Positions 7,567 to 64,000 of a stretch of 64,000 bases of DNA are shown here, piece by piece; within the stretch, counting starts at the first letter, position 1, and each line of letters starts with the position of its first letter. Location: positions 26,768-90,767 of the IMG/VR virus record IMGVR_UViG_3300042319_002356. One strand, given 5' to 3'. A program made the position numbers and the translations under genes. The notes under the pieces were generated by a model. The model was not told the origin of the DNA. It saw nothing but the letters and a program-made list of their open reading frames with translations, and ran no database searches. This DNA is from a virus.

Positions 7567-8325
7567 ATGAACACACCAATTTCTTTTGACAACTTAAAGA
7601 CAATCTGTCCAGCAGCATTCGCAACAAAACCTTCTGACAAGGTTTCAGACAAGTATTCATTCGTTCCAACAGTTGAAGTAATTGAGAACTTCCAAAAAGA
7701 AGGGTGGAATGTGTTTTCAGCACAACAAAGAGGTAGTGGTTCATATGGAAGACATATGATTCGTCTTCGTAACGGTGACCTCCCACAAGTTGGAGACTCT
7801 TTGATTGAAGCAATCATTACGAACTCACACGACGGAACTGCTAAGTTGAATATTAGTTCAGGTTTGTATCGTTTGGTTTGTTCTAACGGTTTGGTAATCC
7901 CACAAGGTGTATTTGAATCAATTCAAGTTTTACACAAGAACATTGAGTTCCAAGACGTTAAAGAAATCAGTAATCAAATCTCTGAAACTTTACCACTCAT
8001 TCAAGGTTCAATGAAGACAATGCAAGAGCGTATCTTGACTTTTGATGAGAAGCGTGATTTCGCAAAAGAAGCGATTGAGTTACGTTGGGAAAACAACAAG
8101 AATGTTAAAAACATTTCTTTGAACGATATGATTATCCCAAAACGTCAAGATGACATGGGTGATGATATGTGGAGAGTATTTAACGTGGTTCAAGAGAAAT
8201 TGGTTCGTGGAGGTTTGATTTACAAAACCGACTCAGGTAGAAATGTCCGCACTCGTCAGTTGACAGATGTGGTAGGTAACACCAAGTTTAACCGTGAATT
8301 GTGGGAGTTGGCATCATCTTATTGA
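7567..8325 (+). CDS. DUF932 family protein
   Basis: 252 aa. Pattern of the phage/plasmid DUF932 family: SFVPTVEVIENFQKEGWNV, then HMIRLRNGDLPQVGD, then LYRLVCSNGLVI, and a helical C-terminus. The family is common on phages and plasmids, and its biochemical role is not established. It is one of few genes here with an untranslated leader and a strong host-type promoter, so it is probably expressed early and abundantly. Base usage is a little richer in C than its neighbours. Confidence 0.85.
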   Translation: MNTPISFDNLKTICPAAFATKPSDKVSDKYSFVPTVEVIENFQKEGWNVFSAQQRGSGSYGRHMIRLRNGDLPQVGDSLIEAIITNSHDGTAKLNISSGLYRLVCSNGLVIPQGVFESIQVLHKNIEFQDVKEISNQISETLPLIQGSMKTMQERILTFDEKRDFAKEAIELRWENNKNVKNISLNDMIIPKRQDDMGDDMWRVFNVVQEKLVRGGLIYKTDSGRNVRTRQLTDVVGNTKFNRELWELASSY

Positions 8326-35357: not shown

Positions 35358-35904
35358 TTTGTAAAGAAGACCCCACAATACCGTTTATCTGCGGTTGGAC
35401 AGTGTGAACCTGGCTTGAAGGCTCCAAGGCTATGGGGGAGGCTACACAGAACGTGAAATACATATAGCACTACTTAATCGGTGTTAATTGGTTTGGGGAA
35501 GTTCAACCAAGTATGATAGGGAACAATGAATTAGATACCCTCGTTATGGATTAAAAGGGTTAGGGGCTTTAAGTAGTCGTGTCGTAATCCACAAGTCGTA
35601 AGAACACTAGACAATCTTACGATATACACTCTTCTTCCGAGTGAGGTTAACCAAGTAACTATGGTGACAGGGCGAAGATGTCTTGAGGGTAACACTGAGC
35701 GCCTTGACCGAGAAGCTTATGACTAATTTGATTAAGTGAGTAGGGACAGGACGGAGTGTGAGAGTATAGGTCCTCGGTGGACGGTTACTATGGTCCCACT
35801 CTCTTGGGGCATATCCGAGGAAATACTACTGATGGTAAAATACTACTAACCAAAGGTCGTCTCGTGAATTACCCACGGACAGGGAAGACGACCTTTAACT
35901 TTTT
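35358..35904 (+). ncRNA. Large structured noncoding RNA (~550 nt), family unassigned
   Basis: No credible reading frame, a higher GC content than flanking genes, and many local helices: CCTCGG (35770s) with CCGAGG (35816 area), TCGTAAG with CTTACGA (35596-35622), CACTC/GAGTG (35627-35643), and a closing 11-bp hairpin AAAGGTCGTCT / AGACGACCTTT (35852-35896) followed by CTTTTT as terminator. Size and position in a tRNA-bearing phage recall the ornate large RNAs GOLLD and ROOL, but I cannot assign it to either. Confidence 0.7.
35852..35904 (+). terminator. Terminator of the large RNA
   Basis: 11-bp stem AAAGGTCGTCT / AGACGACCTTT enclosing a branched 23-nt loop, then AACTTTTT. Confidence 0.7.
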
Positions 35905-35919
35905 AAAAAGAATAAAACA

Positions 35920-37955: not shown

Positions 37956-37986
37956 TTGACATAACTGAAAAATAGCAGTACTTTTG
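37956..37986 (+). promoter_or_regulatory. Strong promoter ahead of small gene and tRNA cluster
   Basis: TTGACA 37956-37961, 17 nt, TACTTTTG 37979-37986. Confidence 0.85.
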
Positions 37987-38188: not shown

Positions 38189-38229
38189 GTGTTACAAAAA
38201 GGTTCTTTGACATATTGGGAAAAATAAAT

Positions 38230-38308
38230 GACCTCATAGCTCAGTTGGTTTTTAGAGCGCCATACTTTTATAATATGGGAGTCCCGAGTTCAAATCTCGG
38301 TGGGGTCA
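38230..38308 (+). tRNA. tRNA with enlarged anticodon loop (anticodon uncertain)
   Basis: Acceptor GACCTCA / TGGGGTC, normal D and T arms (T loop TTCAAAT). The anticodon stem CCATA/TATGG encloses nine bases CTTTTATAA instead of seven. UUU (Lys) or, with a shifted stem, UUA (reading the UAA stop) are both possible. Confidence 0.75.
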
Positions 38309-46156: not shown

Positions 46157-46360
46157 ATGAAAAACAAAGTTTGGCACAAAGTGGAGATTAGTACTGAAGA
46201 ACAAAAAGTTGAAGTTTACCCAACAGAAACATTCGACGGGATTATTGTTGAAACTAAGGAGTGGGATGGTAGTAGTAGTCCTCGTTTGTATCTTAACAAA
46301 GATGAAATGGAGTTTTTGATTACCAAGATGCAAGAGATGATGAAATACGTGAAGGAATAA
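46157..46360 (+). CDS. Small hypothetical protein, 67 aa
   Basis: Beta-strand N-terminal half (EEQKVEVYPTETFDGIIVETKEW) and helical end (LNKDEMEFLITKMQEMMKY), a layout seen in many tiny phage proteins. Role unknown. Confidence 0.6.
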   Translation: MKNKVWHKVEISTEEQKVEVYPTETFDGIIVETKEWDGSSSPRLYLNKDEMEFLITKMQEMMKYVKE

Positions 46361-46368
46361 AAGAATAC

Positions 46369-46472
46369 TCAGGTGGCGGAAGCGAGACGAATGCATTAGT
46401 CCGATAGACAGACGCTAGGGTAACTATCCGAGTCAGAAATGACATGAAGGTGCAAGTCCTTCTCTGAGTACA
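46369..46472 (+). ncRNA. tRNA-like, class II (anticodon unclear)
   Basis: Acceptor ACTCAGG/TCTGAGT, Leu-type TGGCGGAA, variable arm GTCA-GAAA-TGAC, T arm GAAGG-TGCAAGT-CCTTC. About 20 extra bases lie in the D-loop/anticodon region, so no clean 7-nt anticodon loop is found. Confidence 0.55.
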
Positions 46473-46540
46473 AACCAACCAAGGGCAATACGGGTTCATA
46501 CCTGTGGAGCAAGGAGACGGCCAGGAAAGACTGGCAACAT

Positions 46541-46611
46541 AGTCAGGTAACTTAATTGGCAAAGCTCCTAACAAGGAAGATTGCAGGTTCAAATCCTGTC
46601 CTGACTACAAA
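46541..46611 (+). ncRNA. tRNA-like RNA, AGTCAGG family (71 nt)
   Basis: Acceptor AGTCAGG/CCTGACT, D arm CTTAATTGGCAAAG, T loop TTCAAAT. The anticodon position holds only a 12-nt hairpin TCCT-AACA-AGGA, so it cannot present a normal anticodon loop. Confidence 0.6.
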
Positions 46612-46738: not shown

Positions 46739-46769
46739 TTGACACGGGAGTATTTATATCTTACCTTTG
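46739..46769 (+). promoter_or_regulatory. Strong promoter for tRNA-Met operon
   Basis: TTGACA 46739-46744, 17 nt, TACCTTTG 46762-46769; a GTATTTAT octamer is embedded at 46750-46757. Confidence 0.85.
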
Positions 46770-46815
46770 TCAAACAATTCGGAAACGACTGAATTGAAAA
46801 ACAAAATATTATAAA

Positions 46816-56205: not shown

Positions 56206-56421
56206 ATGAAAAAATTTATTAGTTGGGTTTGGTTGGTGGCCTACATTTTATTACCAATCTATTTCATCATAACATTACTTGTATCTTTGTTTACAGGACA
56301 CAAGATGAGTGAGATTATCAGTTATGAGTGGTGGACGTTTTTTTTCTTATTTGAAATTTGGACACACACCATTGTTAGAGAAAGATTGAATGATGCATAT
56401 AACGGAATAAAAGGAGAATAA
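56206..56421 (+). CDS. Small membrane protein, 71 aa
   Basis: Spans at ~5-28 and ~38-56, then a basic tail (VRERLNDAYNGIKGE). Precedes the cREC gene by 1 nt. Function unknown. Confidence 0.6.
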   Translation: MKKFISWVWLVAYILLPIYFIITLLVSLFTGHKMSEIISYEWWTFFFLFEIWTHTIVRERLNDAYNGIKGE

Positions 56422-56422
56422 T

Positions 56423-56872
56423 ATGAAAATATATTTAGATGATGTGAGAACACCAAGAGACAAAGATTGGATGGTTGTCAGAAACTATGGGGAGTTTGTT
56501 GATTTGGTTCAGAAAGTTGGTATTAAGAACATTGGGACCATATCTTTGGACCACGACTTGGGTGATAGTGCAATGAATGAGTATCACACCAACGTATCAC
56601 CTAACTTCAAATTGGATTATAACAACATTAATGAGAAGACTGGATATGATGCGGCTAAGTTCTTGGTTGATGAGTTCTATTCTCAATATCCTGAAAGGTT
56701 GGAGATGAATTACTTTGACAAGAAGAAAGAACCAATCATGTTCCCAATCGTTTTGACTCATTCTGCTAATCCAATTGGTTCTGCAAACATTATGGGTTAT
56801 ATCAATAACTTCTTGATGAACGAAGCTAAACCACAAACTTGTGTAAGAACTCAAATACCTCACACAGTATGA
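56423..56872 (+). CDS. cREC: cyclic-phosphate-processing receiver-like domain
   Basis: 149 aa. MKIYLDDVRTPRDKDW, the segment ending SLDHDLGD and the GYDAAKFLVDEF helix match the cREC family, receiver-fold proteins proposed to process cyclic phosphates in RNA repair and nucleotide signalling. A FPIVLTHSANPIGSANIMGYI C-terminal part carries the family His. Fits with RNA ligase, kinase and HAD phosphatase in this window. Codons are richer in C/G than average here. Confidence 0.82.
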   Translation: MKIYLDDVRTPRDKDWMVVRNYGEFVDLVQKVGIKNIGTISLDHDLGDSAMNEYHTNVSPNFKLDYNNINEKTGYDAAKFLVDEFYSQYPERLEMNYFDKKKEPIMFPIVLTHSANPIGSANIMGYINNFLMNEAKPQTCVRTQIPHTV

Positions 56873-57081
56873 TTAGTAGAATATCAATTGATGTTGAATT
56901 AACAATTGACCAACGTATTGAGATTATTGAAAAGGTTGACCAACATTTTGATATTCTTGATTTTGGAATCAACAGTAATTTTAATAGAGACACACAGGAT
57001 GAAGAGTTACATAAACAAATTGACTTGATGTATCCTGGTGTCCCAAGAAAAGTAACAGCGTATTATACAATAAATAATTAA
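56869..57081 (+). CDS. Small hypothetical protein, 70 aa
   Basis: Starts by ATGA overlap with the cREC gene. Acidic alpha/beta (ISIDVELTIDQRIEIIEKV). Function unknown. Confidence 0.6.
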   Translation: MISRISIDVELTIDQRIEIIEKVDQHFDILDFGINSNFNRDTQDEELHKQIDLMYPGVPRKVTAYYTINN

Positions 57082-57085
57082 AACT

Positions 57086-57364
57086 ATGCCAAATTTCACA
57101 GCTTACAATGTTGATGTTGATTTAGATATTGATGTTGACGATTTTTTATCAGAATGTTCAAATAGAGAAATCAAAGAAATAATTAATGCTTTGATTGAAG
57201 ATGGACATTTAGCCAAACACCCACTCCTTCCTGGTTATGATGATAAGATAGGTAAAATGGAGGAGGAATTTGTTGGTAAACTGTATACCATATCTTCAAA
57301 GTATTATTCAATGACCGAAGAGGAACTTGAGATGATTGATAAACTTTATAACAAATACCGATAA
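57086..57364 (+). CDS. Hypothetical protein, 92 aa
   Basis: Begins FTAYNVDVDLDIDVDDFLSECS, then a helical middle with EIKEIINALIEDGHL, close to a common phage protein type 'DIDVDEFLDELSDREIEELIE'. Role unknown. Confidence 0.7.
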   Translation: MPNFTAYNVDVDLDIDVDDFLSECSNREIKEIINALIEDGHLAKHPLLPGYDDKIGKMEEEFVGKLYTISSKYYSMTEEELEMIDKLYNKYR

Positions 57365-57367
57365 GAT

Positions 57368-57538
57368 ATGTTCTTCTTCATTAAAGTATTTTTCTTCATT
57401 TGTTTTGTGATTGTTTTTTTCTCAATTATTTTATTAATTATCGGAGAATATTTGGCAGGTAAGTTTAAAAGTAGTAAATTTGCTAAATGGTGGAACGACA
57501 ATGTTATCACCGAAATGCCGGACGATTATGAAGATTAA
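57368..57538 (+). CDS. Small membrane protein, 56 aa
   Basis: Aromatic hydrophobic span at ~2-28 (FFFIKVFFFICFVIVFFSII) followed by KFAKWWNDNVITEMPDDYED. Its 3' end overlaps the phosphoesterase start by 11 nt, supporting co-translation. Confidence 0.55.
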   Translation: MFFFIKVFFFICFVIVFFSIILLIIGEYLAGKFKSSKFAKWWNDNVITEMPDDYED

Positions 57539-58211
57539 TGTAACATTATTATCAGATACCCACACCAAACATATGAATGTTATGGTGAATGGAGGTGACT
57601 TGATTTTACATAGTGGTGACATTATGAATTCAGGTTATGACCCTGAAGATTTATACGAGTTTTTACAATGGTTCAGTGAATTACCATATAAGATGAAGGT
57701 GTTTATCCCTGGAAACCATGACCGATTGATTGAGAATAAACCTTGGGACGCTTGGAAGATGATTAACCAGTTCCACGATAAAGGTGTTCGTTGTTTGATT
57801 GATGACTTTGTTGAGTTTGAAGGATTGAAGATTTATGGTAGTCCTTGGCAACCTGAGTTCTACGATTGGGCTTTCAACCTACCACGAAACGGAAAGGAAC
57901 TTGAAGAGAAGTGGAACGCAATTCCTGATGATACTGATATCTTGTTAACTCACGGACCGGCTTGGGGCATTTTGGATACTGTTGTTAATCGTCGTGATGT
58001 GAATCTTGGATGTGAATTGTTAGCAAAAAGATTTGAAACTTTGAATCCTTTGCTTCATCTTTGTGGTCACATTCATACAGGATATGGGTATGTTGAGAAG
58101 AACGGAACACATTTCTTCAACGCATCGGTGTTGGATGAAAGATATCGTTACACTCAAAAACCTTTTGAGATAACAATAGATTTGGAAACTAAACAATTAG
58201 ATATACTATGA
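57528..58211 (+). CDS. Calcineurin-like metallophosphoesterase (MPPED type)
   Basis: 227 aa. Metal-binding motifs LLSDTHTKH, LILHSGDIM, FIPGNHDRL, LLTHGPAWG and CGHIHTGYG are all intact. The spacing matches the MPPED/YfcE-like phosphodiesterases. A second such enzyme in this window (the other is 12161). ATG 57528 (MKINVTLLSDTH) chosen over 57480. Confidence 0.9.
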   Translation: MKINVTLLSDTHTKHMNVMVNGGDLILHSGDIMNSGYDPEDLYEFLQWFSELPYKMKVFIPGNHDRLIENKPWDAWKMINQFHDKGVRCLIDDFVEFEGLKIYGSPWQPEFYDWAFNLPRNGKELEEKWNAIPDDTDILLTHGPAWGILDTVVNRRDVNLGCELLAKRFETLNPLLHLCGHIHTGYGYVEKNGTHFFNASVLDERYRYTQKPFEITIDLETKQLDIL

Positions 58212-58348
58212 ACGGATTAACTAACAGACAATTTGCTTTAATGATGGCAATTGAAGCCCGAAAGATTAAATTTCAGGGTGGGATTTATGACAACGCAGAA
58301 GATTTTTATAATTGGTTGGAACAAGAAAATAAAGAAAAAGAAAAATAA
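58208..58348 (+). CDS. Small hypothetical protein, 46 aa
   Basis: ATGA overlap with the phosphoesterase stop. TNRQFALMMAIEARKIKFQGGIYDNAEDFYNWLE, a short helical peptide; similar peptides occur in phages ('MTLALEARKIELGG'). Function unknown. Confidence 0.5.
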   Translation: MNGLTNRQFALMMAIEARKIKFQGGIYDNAEDFYNWLEQENKEKEK

Positions 58349-58349
58349 T

Positions 58350-58619
58350 ATGAGAAAATCAAATTTTTATGTGGTGATGTTATTCACATTACTAACAATT
58401 ATGGCAACAATGGTGTCTTGTACAGACGCGACAATGAGTAAGATGGGTGGATATGGTGATACCTTTACCGTTAAGGTATTGGGACCTGACACTGTAATCA
58501 CTTACCACTCAACAGGTAAAGTTATCAGTGAGGAACATAGTGATGGTTATTACTTCACAAACCGTGAGACTGGTAAGTTGGTTGAGGTGAGTGGTAACAT
58601 TATTATTGAACAAGAATAA
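58350..58619 (+). CDS. Lipoprotein, 89 aa
   Basis: Signal peptide with lipobox MVSC at ~18-21 (FTLLTIMATMVSC), so lipid-anchored in the host envelope. The mature part is a small beta domain (DTFTVKVLGPDTVITYHSTGKV). Could be a superinfection-exclusion or lysis-inhibition lipoprotein; this is inference. Confidence 0.75.
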   Translation: MRKSNFYVVMLFTLLTIMATMVSCTDATMSKMGGYGDTFTVKVLGPDTVITYHSTGKVISEEHSDGYYFTNRETGKLVEVSGNIIIEQE

Positions 58620-58711
58620 TGTTGGCTCTTGGATGTACCCTATGCGGGATATGGGTGGGAATGTTTATTTCCTTTCTCGCAACTAAACATATGTTTGAAA
58701 AAAGAAAATAA
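58619..58711 (+). CDS. Very small membrane peptide, 30 aa
   Basis: MLALGCTLCGIWVGMFISFL then a basic tail. Overlaps both neighbours by 1 nt at the stop/start, which favours a real gene, but length makes it uncertain. Confidence 0.4.
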   Translation: MLALGCTLCGIWVGMFISFLATKHMFEKRK

Positions 58712-59571
58712 TGGAATTTGAAAAAGTAATTAATACCGTAATCAACGGAGACTGTATTGAAGTAATGAAGGAAATGCCGGAGGGGGTGGTGGATTTGATT
58801 GTAACATCACCCCCTTATGGAGTAAACATCGCTTATGATGTCCATGATGATGATATGGAGATAAATGAGTATTTGGAGTTTACTCGTAAATGGATGACTG
58901 AGGCCTATAAAGTTCTAAAAGATGATGGAAGAATTGCTTTGAACATTCCATATGAGATTAACCGACAAGCTAAAGGTGGAAGGATTTTCTTTGTATCCGA
59001 AGTTTATCAGGTTATGAAGGAGATTGGGTTTAAGTTCTTTGGTATCGTTGACTTGGAAGAAGATAGTCCCCATAGAAGTAAGACAACCGCTTGGGGTAGT
59101 TGGATGAGTCCATCAAGTCCGTATATCTATAACCCAAAGGAATGTATGGTTCTTGCTTATAAGAAACACCACATCAAGAAAGTTAAGGGTGAACCACAAT
59201 GGAAAGGTGAACCAACCGTGACTGAAGAGGGTAAAACCAAGATTGTTTATCAGGAACAAGATAAGAAAGATTTTATGGAATTGGTATTTGGGCAATGGAA
59301 GTATTTGAATGACTCAAGACCAATGACCAAGGCAACTTTCAGTATGGATATTCCAACCAAAGCAATTAAGATATTGTCATATAAGAATGATGTTGTGTTG
59401 GACCCATTTAATGGTAGTGGAACAAGTTGTGTGGCGGCAGAAATTTTGGATAGAAGATGGATTGGTATTGAACTTTCTGAAAATTATGCTAATATCGCTA
59501 AAGAACGAATACAAGGTTTTGTTGACCAAAAAAAACAACAGAAATTACAATTTGAAAACGGGGGTCAATAA
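58711..59571 (+). CDS. DNA methyltransferase (beta class), third in window
   Basis: 286 aa. Motif IV TSPPYGVN near residue 30 and the C-terminal SAM motif VLDPFNGSGTSCVAAEILDRRWIGIELSENY. INTVINGDCIEVMKEMPEGVVDLIV is the class opening. Adenine-N6 or cytosine-N4 target unknown. Middle ~150 residues is the recognition part. Confidence 0.93.
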   Translation: MEFEKVINTVINGDCIEVMKEMPEGVVDLIVTSPPYGVNIAYDVHDDDMEINEYLEFTRKWMTEAYKVLKDDGRIALNIPYEINRQAKGGRIFFVSEVYQVMKEIGFKFFGIVDLEEDSPHRSKTTAWGSWMSPSSPYIYNPKECMVLAYKKHHIKKVKGEPQWKGEPTVTEEGKTKIVYQEQDKKDFMELVFGQWKYLNDSRPMTKATFSMDIPTKAIKILSYKNDVVLDPFNGSGTSCVAAEILDRRWIGIELSENYANIAKERIQGFVDQKKQQKLQFENGGQ

Positions 59572-59582
59572 CCTCCGTTTTT
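59557..59582 (+). terminator. Rho-independent terminator
   Basis: AACGGGGGT, loop CAATA, ACCTCCGTT and T run, overlapping the methyltransferase stop codon. Confidence 0.75.
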
Positions 59583-59593
59583 CATTTTACCAT

Positions 59594-59601
59594 ATATTTA
59601 T
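59594..59601 (+). promoter_or_regulatory. Late-type motif ATATTTAT
   Basis: 4 nt before ATG 59606. Confidence 0.6.
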
Positions 59602-59605
59602 TGTT

Positions 59606-59977
59606 ATGGAAAATTCAGAAATAGTTATATTATTAGTTCAAATACAAACCCAATTTAAAATGTTACATTGGCAAACTGACTCACTTTCAGGTCATAAAGC
59701 TTTTGGTAAGGTATATGATAGTTTGGGGGAACTTATTGATGAGTTCGTTGAGGTTTGTATGGGAAAACACGGAAGACCATCTTTTTCAGGTGGGTATCAA
59801 ATTACAGGTGAAGACATATCAGAAATGGAATTAGATACATTTATTTCACAAACTTGTGAATTTTTAGTTTCCCTGACAGAAGTTTATAATCCTAAAGAGG
59901 ATTCTGATTTATTAAATTTAAGAGATGAAATGTTGTCACAGATTAATAAGTTAAAATACTTACTGACACTTAAATAA
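59606..59977 (+). CDS. Ferritin-like/Dps-like (DUF5856) protein
   Basis: 123 aa. LVQIQTQFKMLHWQTDSLSGH then AFGKVYDSLGELIDEFVEV reproduces the first helices of a Dps-like four-helix bundle with HWQT and an E-x-x-D pair. The phage family with this pattern is known as DUF5856. Possible iron or DNA binding in the virion or host; late motif suggests late use. Confidence 0.78.
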   Translation: MENSEIVILLVQIQTQFKMLHWQTDSLSGHKAFGKVYDSLGELIDEFVEVCMGKHGRPSFSGGYQITGEDISEMELDTFISQTCEFLVSLTEVYNPKEDSDLLNLRDEMLSQINKLKYLLTLK

Positions 59978-60000
59978 TATTATTTGATATTTTAATTTGA

Positions 60001-60036
60001 AAGGTTTATCATTTACATGATGAACCTTTTTTTTGG
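60001..60036 (+). terminator. Terminator-like hairpin overlapping a gene start
   Basis: AAGGTTTATCA / TGATGAACCTT plus eight T; the start codons of the next gene (60017, 60020) lie in the loop/right arm, and the T run encodes its first Phe codons. Confidence 0.65.
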
Positions 60037-60361
60037 TATAATATTGGTGATTATTGGTCAGTTCTTAGCATTTATTCAAATGCAAGGACACTATAAGTTC
60101 CCTTGGCTTAAAAGTAATTTATGGTTTGGAGTATTGTTGGGTATTCCTATATCTGCAATCTTTATGCTTGGTATACATTTATTAATAAAGTATTATGATA
60201 ATACTATGTGGCCAAGTAGGATTATAGGATTTTCAATTGGAACCACAGTGTATGCGATTATGGCGTATACTTGGTTTAACGAACAAATAACCACAAAAAC
60301 ATCAATTTGTTTATTCTTGTCACTACTTATCATCTTGGTTCAGGTTTTCTGGAAAGAATGA
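60017..60361 (+). CDS. Four-span membrane protein, 114 aa
   Basis: Hydrophobic spans at ~3-18, ~34-54, ~66-84 and ~94-111. It resembles small multidrug/EamA-like half transporters in size and topology, but no signature residue can be confirmed. The translation start overlaps a terminator hairpin. Confidence 0.65.
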   Translation: MMNLFFGIILVIIGQFLAFIQMQGHYKFPWLKSNLWFGVLLGIPISAIFMLGIHLLIKYYDNTMWPSRIIGFSIGTTVYAIMAYTWFNEQITTKTSICLFLSLLIILVQVFWKE

Positions 60362-60368
60362 TATTTAT
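60361..60368 (+). promoter_or_regulatory. Late-type motif ATATTTAT
   Basis: 5 nt before ATG 60374. Confidence 0.6.
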
Positions 60369-60373
60369 AATAT

Positions 60374-62539
60374 ATGAAAGAAATATTGTCTGAGGGTGGT
60401 ATTAGGAATATCAACCAATTAAAGAAAGATTTTAAAAACGCAAAAATATTTTACCATATAGATTTAGATGGTGTTACTTCAGCTTTGGCTATGAAAAAAT
60501 ACCTTGAAGATAAGGGATTTAAAGTCATCGGATGTGAAGGAATACAATATGGTGATAAAGAATATTCGGTTGAAAAGTCGGACCCGGCAATCAATCTAAT
60601 GAATGTATTGGTGGATTTTGCTCACGGAAAACCAATGTTTCACATTATGACTGACCACCACGACAGACAAGCTGGTGTTGAGAAAGATACCTCAACATCA
60701 TTCAGACATGCAAGGTCAAACGTTGAAACTCTTTCCCAAATTATCCCAACTGCTGAAATATTCCCACCAGAAGACGTTAAGATTATCTCAATGGTGGATA
60801 GTGCCGATTATGCTAGAAATGAAGTAACACCTGAAATGGTTATGAACTATATCTTTGACTTTGATAAGGATAAAGGATTGGCGAATAACAAATTAGTTTT
60901 AGGATTGGTTACAAATAAAATGTTATTGGCGTTTAAGAACAAACCACAATTCTTGGACACACTTGTGATGGAATGTAAACCATCACTTATGTCAATATAT
61001 CAAAAGATTAGTCAGGTAGTTAAAGAAAGGGGATTTCCTGGTAGAGAAACTCTTGAAAAGAATAAGGAGATGTATGTTACGTCTATGAAGAATTCTCCTA
61101 ACGTTCAGGTGGATGGACCAATATTAGTTCAGTATGGTGGTGGTAATATGATGAAACCAGGTTCATACGATAGATATACTCCATTCAGAAATAATCCTGA
61201 AGCTGATTTCTTGGTAATCGCTTGGCCATTAGGTTTATTACAAGCATCTTGTAATCCTTTCAAGAAAGAAAGAGAACTTAAAGGTGTTAATCTTGGTGAG
61301 ATTGCTCAAGAAGTATTAAGTAAATGGGAAGGACAGTTGAAGGAAAGAGATGTTAAGTTATCAACTATTAAATGGATTTCAGAATCTTCAAAAGATTTTG
61401 GAGACCAATCTGTAGGATTTACATATAAAGATTTCTTGGCGTTATACAGTGAGAAGTACAGTGTAATGGAAAATGGTGAAAAGTTCTTGGATATCATTTT
61501 TGATTTAATGGAGAAACCATTCTCAAAGTTATCTGAAAAAGAATTAGAGGTATTAGATAGGATTACAGTACCGGCTTGGGATTTAATACAAGCAAACTCT
61601 GGTGGACACAAATGTATTACGAATATATCAGGTCTTAATTTCTTAGGTAGAAGTAATAGACCACCATCAGGAGGTTATAGATATAATTCTGAAAGTGAAG
61701 ATTCACCTTACATTAAGTTCTTAAAAATGTTACAAAAAGAATTTGTTAAGGTTCTTAAAAATAAAATTGATGAATCAAAAGCAGGTAAAAATTTAGAAGA
61801 GAGTATCATTGATAGAGTTAAAAAAAAAATATTAAAAGAACAAACTACTATTCCTGACATTACCTCAGGAGATACCCAAGATACAAAAAAAGAACCTGAT
61901 TTTGAAGATGTTGATTTAGATAAGCTTGATAAACAAAAACTACAAGGTGAAAATCTATTTAAGTTATTATTGATTATTTTCGGGATTGGAAAACTAGCAT
62001 CCCCAAAGGGTAGAGAGTTCCTTAAAAAAATAAAATCAAAATTAATGGGAGTTTCTGATGAAGAAATCTCAGGTGAATCAAATGTTTTAGGATTTCCTTT
62101 GAGTGAATATAAGGATAGATTATGTAATGGTTGCACGTATGGAAAACCAAGAGATGGTGGAAAGAGAAGTCATGCGGGAATTGATTTGGCTGCAAGTTCT
62201 GGAACTGAAGTACTGGCTCCTTTAGATGGGACAGTAACTGATTCTGAAATTAGAGACAATGCTTGTGGTGGAACAATTGCCATTGAACATGGTGAGATAG
62301 ATGGACATGAAACTAAAACTAGATATTGTCATATTAAAGAACTTAAAGTTAAGAAGGGAGATAAGGTTAAGAAAGGTGATGTGATAGGTATTAGTGGCGG
62401 AGATAGTGATGACGTTGGAAGAGGTTCAAGTAGTGGTGCTCACCTACACTTTGAACTTTATAAAGACGGAAACCATTTGGACCCTAAAGAATATGTGTTA
62501 GCACCAAACGAAGAAGGTAGAAAGAAACTATGGACTTAA
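60374..62539 (+). CDS. Tagged DHH phosphoesterase - M23 peptidase fusion
   Basis: 721 aa. Tag MKEILSEGG. Residues ~25-400 form a DHH/DHHA1 phosphoesterase: FYHIDLDGVTSALAM, MTDHHDRQ, later AWDLIQANSGGHKCITNISG. A linker with EESIIDRVKKKILKE and a hydrophobic helix follows. Residues ~580-715 form an M23 LytM-like peptidase with SHAGIDLAA (HxxxD), TRYCHIKELKVKKGDKV and AHLHFELY. DHH enzymes cleave short RNAs or cyclic dinucleotides; M23 cuts peptidoglycan. Joined in one tagged, late protein it could be a virion entry enzyme carrying an effector. Confidence 0.88.
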   Translation: MKEILSEGGIRNINQLKKDFKNAKIFYHIDLDGVTSALAMKKYLEDKGFKVIGCEGIQYGDKEYSVEKSDPAINLMNVLVDFAHGKPMFHIMTDHHDRQAGVEKDTSTSFRHARSNVETLSQIIPTAEIFPPEDVKIISMVDSADYARNEVTPEMVMNYIFDFDKDKGLANNKLVLGLVTNKMLLAFKNKPQFLDTLVMECKPSLMSIYQKISQVVKERGFPGRETLEKNKEMYVTSMKNSPNVQVDGPILVQYGGGNMMKPGSYDRYTPFRNNPEADFLVIAWPLGLLQASCNPFKKERELKGVNLGEIAQEVLSKWEGQLKERDVKLSTIKWISESSKDFGDQSVGFTYKDFLALYSEKYSVMENGEKFLDIIFDLMEKPFSKLSEKELEVLDRITVPAWDLIQANSGGHKCITNISGLNFLGRSNRPPSGGYRYNSESEDSPYIKFLKMLQKEFVKVLKNKIDESKAGKNLEESIIDRVKKKILKEQTTIPDITSGDTQDTKKEPDFEDVDLDKLDKQKLQGENLFKLLLIIFGIGKLASPKGREFLKKIKSKLMGVSDEEISGESNVLGFPLSEYKDRLCNGCTYGKPRDGGKRSHAGIDLAASSGTEVLAPLDGTVTDSEIRDNACGGTIAIEHGEIDGHETKTRYCHIKELKVKKGDKVKKGDVIGISGGDSDDVGRGSSSGAHLHFELYKDGNHLDPKEYVLAPNEEGRKKLWT

Positions 62540-62874
62540 TCTATTTTGATTGAGTCACCTTCTGTAATACCCCAAGTATCACATAACCCACCAGGAACTT
62601 CTAAAACCATATCGGCGTTATCACATTGAAAATGTTTACATTCTTCAGTATAACAAGGTTGACAATCCCGAGCAATTTCCGTAATTTTATTATCTGAAAT
62701 AAAGATAATATCTAAAGGTATGATACATCCCTTCATCCAAAATGATTGAGGACCTGGGTTTAGATAAAACAACATTCCAAGATAATTGGAGTCAAATTTC
62801 TTACCCATCATACCTTCTGAATTATTCTCAGATGGAATTGCTTTAATTTTGTAATCTTTAATTTTAATAACCAT
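62536..62874 (-). CDS. DUF192 family protein
   Basis: 112 aa. SEGMMGKKF, MLFYLNPGPQSFWMKGCIIPLDIIFI and VLEVPGGLCDTWGITEGD follow the DUF192 pattern (M-F-x-F ... F-W-M-K-x-x-x-x-P-L-D-I-x-F-I). Function of the family is unknown. Overlaps the fusion gene's 3' end convergently by 4 nt; late motif on its strand 8 nt upstream. Confidence 0.88.
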   Translation of the reverse strand: MVIKIKDYKIKAIPSENNSEGMMGKKFDSNYLGMLFYLNPGPQSFWMKGCIIPLDIIFISDNKITEIARDCQPCYTEECKHFQCDNADMVLEVPGGLCDTWGITEGDSIKID

Positions 62875-62882
62875 ATTTAATA

Positions 62883-62890
62883 ATAAATAT
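62883..62890 (-). promoter_or_regulatory. Late-type motif ATATTTAT (minus strand)
   Basis: ATAAATAT on the plus strand, 8 nt from the DUF192 start; it lies in the divergent gap before the Nudix gene. Confidence 0.55.
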
Positions 62891-62895
62891 CAAGT

Positions 62896-63303
62896 ATGAA
62901 ACAATCGTCAGGAATTATTGTAAAATGTAATAACAGAATCCTTGTATGCCAGAGGTCCACTGAAAATTCTGAAGGCGGAAAATGGGCAATACCTATGGGT
63001 GGAATTGAAGAAGGGGAGAGACCTGAAGATGCTGCTTACAGAGAATTCCATGAGGAGATGGGGGTAGAAATTGAAGGAGGGTTGCAATCTTTGGGGTATA
63101 TTAATCGGTATAATAAACAAGGAGGATTAAAAAGTATTCTTTATTTGTTTATGTATGAAACAAATGATGAGTTAATTCCAAACCTTGAGTTGGCAATGGA
63201 TGGACACGAGCATACTGAATGTGGGTATATGACTAAGGAACAAATTGAGGGATTATACATGTCAGATTCAATAAAAGAAGCAATTTTAAAGAAACTTCAA
63301 TAA
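62896..63303 (+). CDS. Nudix hydrolase
   Basis: 135 aa. The Nudix box GGIEEGERPEDAAYREFHEEMG matches GX5EX7REUXEEXGU. It hydrolyses nucleoside diphosphates linked to another moiety, for example damaged dNTPs or RNA caps. Divergent from the DUF192 gene. No separate late motif on this strand, so a promoter is not obvious. Confidence 0.9.
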   Translation: MKQSSGIIVKCNNRILVCQRSTENSEGGKWAIPMGGIEEGERPEDAAYREFHEEMGVEIEGGLQSLGYINRYNKQGGLKSILYLFMYETNDELIPNLELAMDGHEHTECGYMTKEQIEGLYMSDSIKEAILKKLQ

Positions 63304-63318
63304 TTTTCAGATATTTAT

Positions 63319-63349
63319 TTGACACTACCAAATATTTGCCGTAAGTTTG
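63319..63349 (+). promoter_or_regulatory. Tandem strong promoter 1
   Basis: TTGACA 63319-63324, 17 nt, TAAGTTTG 63342-63349. An ATATTTAT octamer (63311-63318) abuts it. Confidence 0.88.
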
Positions 63350-63420
63350 TAAAAGATTTGACACTCATAGGGAATGAAAGATACTCGGTAGTCAAAAAGA
63401 AAAAAAACTTTACAAAAAGT

Positions 63421-63451
63421 TTGACAAATTGAAAAAGATGTTGTAAGTTTG
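63421..63451 (+). promoter_or_regulatory. Tandem strong promoter 2
   Basis: TTGACA 63421-63426, 17 nt, TAAGTTTG 63444-63451. Confidence 0.88.
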
Positions 63452-63529
63452 TAAAGAATTTGAGATTAAGGTTCACAAAGTGGTAAAACGATGAAAGTTT
63501 CCAAATCTCAAAAAAAGTTAACAAATAAC

Positions 63530-63560
63530 TTGACAAATAGAAATAAATGTCGTAAATTTG
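63530..63560 (+). promoter_or_regulatory. Tandem strong promoter 3
   Basis: TTGACA 63530-63535, 17 nt, TAAATTTG 63553-63560. Confidence 0.88.
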
Positions 63561-63565
63561 TAAAA

Positions 63566-64000
63566 CAATTCGGAAATGTCCGATTCGTTCTTTGAAAAAA
63601 TAGATTATCCATTCAGTGAAAGTAATCCTTCGGGATGATGATAACTGATAAACGATAATGGGCCGTGTATGGTCCTTAAATAAACTACGAAAGTAGGATA
63701 AAGTGGTCTCCCCCGTGTTGAGGAGATTGCGGTTTGAAACACCGAAAGGTGAATTGAACTCAAGTACACAAGTGGGATATCACAACACCGTAAGTACCGA
63801 GGATAACTTCGTAGGGAAAATGGTGGGGTGACCTGGCAAAGTAGATTGTCAGGTTGAACTCGGAAGAGTAATAAGAATAACCCATAGGAACTCTGTAAGA
63901 AATGTGACCATCCAGTTACACTATTGCGGGTCCCAATATGATAGAGGACTTAAAACCGAAAGGTAAGATAGAGAACGAGTGGTGTCGCTACTATCCCTAA
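63566..64000 (+). ncRNA. Large structured RNA, 3' end outside window
   Basis: No frame, GC-rich relative to flanks, many tetraloop hairpins: a 5' AATTCGGA/TCCGATT-type stem just after promoter 3, CCTTCGGG (63632 area), CTACGAAAGTAG (63686 area), CACCGAAAGGTG (63741 area), TCTCC/GGAGA (63706-63728). At least 435 nt and runs off the window. Family not identified. Confidence 0.7.

Follow-up and report, generated by a model that had tools for sequence, protein, structure and literature searches.

The viral record (G000) is 90,767 bp long, and the window analysed here is its final 64 kb. The contig ends at position 64000 and therefore the RNA gene found there is incomplete. Judging by homology, the end of the window is the 5' domain, i.e. 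the first half, of a ~910-nt GOLLD RNA, which makes it a new member of an already known family. We propose, with good confidence, that this RNA belongs to a transcription unit of a phage with a Bacteroidota host, in which tandem sigma-A promoters, a small hairpin and a boxA would recruit the host Nus factors and yield abundant GOLLD. The rRNA-type leader on GOLLD (tandem promoters, hairpin and boxA) appears to be new. We found no description of one in the literature searched, although few subscription journals were covered and this is weak evidence of absence.

Tandem promoters and the leader of the RNA

The pattern TTGAC-N18-TAANTTTG occurs at three sites in the 64 kb (63319, 63421 and 63530), compared with 0.06 expected, and three sites were reached by no shuffle. 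The original prediction had described three copies of TTGACA-N17-TAAnTTTG, and this proved exact at the same positions, with no other site in 64 kb. Located by pattern scan on the + strand, P1 (63319..63349) and P2 (63421..63451) have the form TTGACA-N17-TAAGTTTG and P3 (63530..63560) the form TTGACA-N17-TAAATTTG. Their transcripts would start at about 63354, 63456 and 63565, respectively. The upstream flank, outside the RNA, contains a NUDIX hydrolase gene (62896..63303, + strand).

The -7 box of the Flavobacterium sigma-A, TAnnTTTG, is located at -12 to -5 (PMC9723704), and by their sequence the three promoters are of the Bacteroidota sigma-A type. The looser Bacteroidota form TTG-N20-TAnnTTTG was found at 18 sites in the window, all on the + strand (2.1 expected). 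This means that the phage uses host-type promoters throughout. The full TTGACA is present in just five of the 18, namely P1 to P3, the tRNA-island site at 37956 and the tRNA-Met site at 46739, so the best -33 boxes are those of stable-RNA units. It also agrees with the earlier claim that the three promoters are closer to consensus than the gene promoters. The other 13 promoters of this form have no full TTGACA -33 box.

Each inter-promoter spacer harbours one hairpin with the ends TTTGA.../...TCAAA, at 63357..63396 between P1 and P2 (TTTGAC...GTCAAA) and at 63459..63512 between P2 and P3 (TTTGAGATT...AAATCTCAAA), both on the + strand. These hairpins are also present in relatives (L002, L007, L008, L023 and L052) and have a conserved loop core, ACGATT[AC]AGATAC or GATGAAAGATACTCGG. 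A phage or host factor could be their ligand.

P3 is followed on the + strand by a small hairpin (TCGG-AAATGT-CCGA, 63570..63583) and the boxA-like element GTTCTTTGA (63587..63595). The hairpin lies directly 5' of the boxA, in a boxB-like position, which gives the order promoter-boxB-boxA. In the E. coli rrn operons, P2 is likewise followed by the boxB hairpin and boxA (PMC10250234). The stem sequence of the hairpin varies in relatives while the pairing is kept (TCGG/CCGA, TCTC/GAGA and GTTACTC/GAGTAAC). Its folding z was below -1.5 in 19 of 28 distinct leaders, and it is weak or absent in about a third. A 5' hairpin shared with the tRNA-Met leader had also been predicted, and here only the beginning held. 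CAATTCGGAAA is found at both 63566 and 46775 (0.19 expected), but the stems differ (TCGG/CCGA vs CAATTC/GAATTG at 46775).

Of the 49 distinct sequences upstream of GOLLD, 47 have GTTCTTTGA at most 300 bp ahead of the RNA core, against a mean of 0.1 in shuffles and none on the reverse strand. The 9-mer is placed between the last promoter and GOLLD, usually right after a hairpin. The two upstreams without it (L011 and L036) have GTTCTTTAAAA there, which is the exact gamma consensus. GTTCTTTGA itself is one position off the published gamma-proteobacterial boxA consensus, GYTCTTTAANA (PMC5725501). For comparison with the host boxA we used 113 Bacteroidota 16S leaders, where GTTCTTTGA ranks second among the 9-mers and occurs in 44 leaders, compared with 0.3 in shuffles and none on the reverse strand; its position is about -75 to -185 relative to the 16S genes. 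The form GTTC[AT]TTGA occurs in 66. Since the exact 9-mer is absent from 69 of the 113 leaders (GTTC[AT]TTGA from 47), the Bacteroidota boxA, as read from these sequences, is variable or partly absent. The putative boxA is identified by one 9-mer.

In two Acinetobacter phages (L207 and L208), GOLLD has neither an exact boxA nor a triple promoter, so this leader is not a general property of GOLLDs, and nor is its boxA. The public annotation of L208 (Acinetobacter phage Ab15) has reverse-strand hypothetical proteins inside or beside the GOLLD at 2281-2651; these are likely spurious.

boxA at other stable RNAs of the phages

The relatives, 859 kb in all, contain 62 distinct GTTCTTTGA sites, and 37 of them precede GOLLD. 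Eight precede tRNAs, with two more recognised by eye (window 38202 and L028 11156), and three precede tmRNA or tmRNA-like sequence (L044, L073 and L084). The remaining 12 are close to the chance expectation. The motif is positioned 15-30 nt ahead of the phage tRNA arrays and tmRNA or tmRNA-like genes, often as GGTTCTTTGACATATTGG. Counted along the motif-bearing strand, such sites lie at window 38202-38210, L014 4049, L048 13392, L058 13224, L066 10521, L044 3552, L073 6921 and L084 7865. The window tRNAs at 38230-38308 and 46541-46607 were detected by Rfam and missed by ARAGORN. Right upstream of the second one, at 46360-46475, there is another structured-looking RNA.

The same sites could be read differently, with GOLLD driven by strong tandem promoters and GTTCTTTGA acting as an RNA-processing or stability element of stable RNAs, without being a Nus site. 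The motif does lie 15-30 nt before the mature 5' ends of tRNA and tmRNA and just before the GOLLD fold, as processing sites would, and its counts in GOLLD upstreams and 16S leaders fit the processing and Nus functions alike. However, the very same 9-mer is found at about -75 to -185 of the Bacteroidota 16S genes and deviates by a single position from the E. coli boxA established by experiment (PMC5725501), and the gamma consensus itself is present, unaltered, in two relatives. We consider the processing function unlikely. We lean towards a model in which a whole clade of Bacteroidota phages has placed GOLLD, tRNA arrays and tmRNA under the host rRNA boxA. Nus factors would be hijacked to mass-produce GOLLD, which would tie this RNA to ribosome and tRNA biogenesis.

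GOLLD identity and structure of the RNA

The stretch after P3 consists of 436 nt of non-coding sequence which runs off the contig and folds better than its shuffles (z -4.0). In the window, Rfam gave no match for this stretch, to GOLLD or otherwise, either at the gathering threshold or at E up to 5, and RF02032 had no match on the window's own record. Rfam is silent because RF02032 models only the 3' domain of GOLLD, which is located outside the window, past 64000.

The continuation was found among 81 viral stretches collected in a motif scan with RGTCCTTAAATAAACNNCGAAAG. Two of these contigs have 100% identity to the window end and extend past 64000. L055 matches window 56408-64000 (7593 bp, 100%) and continues for a further 6312 bp, and L047 matches window 58991-64000 (5010 bp, 100%) and extends beyond. 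In L055, RF02032 matches at 7655-8068, i.e. 62-475 nt past window position 64000. The match covers model positions 1-416 of 416 with 321 bits (E 9e-93) and exceeds the Rfam cut-off of 150 bits. L055 therefore contains the complete GOLLD RNA, with its 3' end at 8068. The 5' domain, recognised by homology, alignment and covariation, occupies 63603..64000 on the + strand, where it is cut by the contig end, and continues at L055 7594-7654; the 3' domain is the RF02032 match. If transcription begins at the inferred site of P3 (~63565), the RNA would be ~910 nt long, with a 5' domain of ~460 nt and a 3' domain of 414 nt.

The same arrangement was observed in relatives. The 5' motif was present in 50 viral records, of which 49 had RF02032 over the cut-off; none of 14 control genomes had it. 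The exception, L006, is a stretch with ~580 nt after the motif, too short for the full 3' domain. By blastn, the region has ~70% identity to two ~640-kb uncultured phages, in which RF02032 follows directly after the matching region (287 and 275 bits). The RNA is phage-borne, and a tRNA adjoins GOLLD in relatives L002, L003, L028, L052 and others. In the phage of the window, the tRNAs lie 8-25 kb upstream of GOLLD. One 59-kb contig, IMGVR_UViG_3300042869_000878 (L014 and L051), has two GOLLD genes ~16 kb apart.

The alignment of the 5' domain (A1) comprises 28 relatives and contains 92 pairs, 62 of them with compensatory change, and 291 doubly changed cells. Paired cells amount to 97.1%, vs 34-43% for slid partners. 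The structure was taken from the same alignment as was scored, which favours it over the slid controls; nevertheless, the gap to these controls and the 291 doubly changed cells decisively outweigh this bias. An Acinetobacter phage GOLLD has a 5' domain to which the 5' core can be aligned as well. Together, GOLLD homology and covariation confirm the large structured non-coding RNA that had been predicted.

If the RNA had no relation to GOLLD and represented a new class of large phage RNAs, this would agree with the lack of any Rfam match for it in the window, even with E up to 5. Such a class is highly improbable since RF02032 covers the 3' half only, the complete 3' domain comes directly after in the identical contigs and in 49 of 50 relatives, and the 5' core aligns with the Acinetobacter phage GOLLD. 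Barring the same chimaera in both, L055 and L047 rule this class out. It is hardly tenable either that the promoters serve an ordinary downstream protein gene with the stretch as its long 5' UTR: the RNA 3' end is indeed absent within the window, but the putative UTR has dense RNA covariation, and in the identical contigs, where a protein gene using the leader could have shown itself, a complete GOLLD is followed by convergent ORFs (L055 8072-8368 and 8383-8847, both on the opposite strand), which rules this reading out.

The window contains a second large structured-looking RNA (35358-35905), without an Rfam match. A comparison of the two had been suggested, and they turned out to be different RNAs, unrelated in sequence. 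The 35358 RNA is present in the same phage in L204 and L205 and has relatives at 73-89% in L058 (9699-10179) and L078 (8840-9320). Two pattern scans for its relatives returned near-identical contigs only.

Comparison with known systems and possible function

The 14-mer cage of GOLLD env-38 is formed by an RNA with a 5' region of 420 nt and a 3' region of 413 nt (PMC12286853). By published domain sizes the RNA described here is alike, with a 3' domain of 414 nt (413 in env-38) and a full model match. It also shares the separate, less conserved 5' domain, the total length of >800 nt, the phage location and the nearness of tRNAs in relatives. The three tandem Bacteroidota promoters, the hairpin and the boxA in the leader set it apart from GOLLD as described in the literature searched. 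Compared on these three elements, the leader resembles those of bacterial rRNA operons (P1-P2-boxB-boxA; PMC10250234, PMC5725501), where tandem promoters, a small hairpin and boxA also come shortly before a long structured RNA. In contrast to them, it drives a phage non-coding RNA, has three promoters and its hairpin is inconstant.

ROOL is, similarly, a large phage RNA near tRNAs, cage-forming and very abundant in one strain (PMC12286853), but the RNA of the window is of another sequence family. With E up to 5, Rfam detected no ROOL in the window, and L055 gave GOLLD only. The most abundant transcript of the Vibrio phage ICP1 is a non-coding RNA of ~800 nt (PMC7567579), comparable to ours by size. 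RF02032 has no match in ICP1, which was therefore rejected as a GOLLD carrier.

In the mechanism that we propose, the three host-type sigma-A promoters would give high initiation, and the transcript from P3 would present first the small hairpin and then boxA GTTCTTTGA. The boxA would load the host NusB/NusE (S10) onto RNA polymerase, which could then make the untranslated, highly folded ~0.9-kb RNA fast and without Rho termination. By homology, the RNA would fold and then multimerise into a homo-oligomeric cage. The original prediction placed this RNA among the most abundant phage transcripts. This is plausible, given the quality of the promoters, the leader with its boxA and the fact that the top transcript of ICP1 is GOLLD/ROOL-sized (PMC7567579).

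In a Lactobacillus brevis prophage, GOLLD accumulates in lytic growth and is dispensable for phage production, according to the account given in PMC7567579. Work cited in PMC12286853 reports binding of ribosomes to GOLLD. As tRNA and tmRNA units have this boxA too, GOLLD may be linked to translation. Because of this common boxA and the reported ribosome binding, as cited there, our most likely guess is that GOLLD serves in the lytic cycle as an abundant RNA compartment or as a decoy engaging the translation machinery.

Truncated GOLLDs escape Rfam for want of a 5' domain in its model, and alignment A1 could supply this missing part. GOLLD is among the largest known RNA-only assemblies and can form hollow cages. 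The conserved rRNA-type leader predicts a very high GOLLD output and names NusB and S10 as candidate host factors, while the boxA common to phage tRNAs and tmRNA would be the first regulatory hint of the partners of GOLLD.
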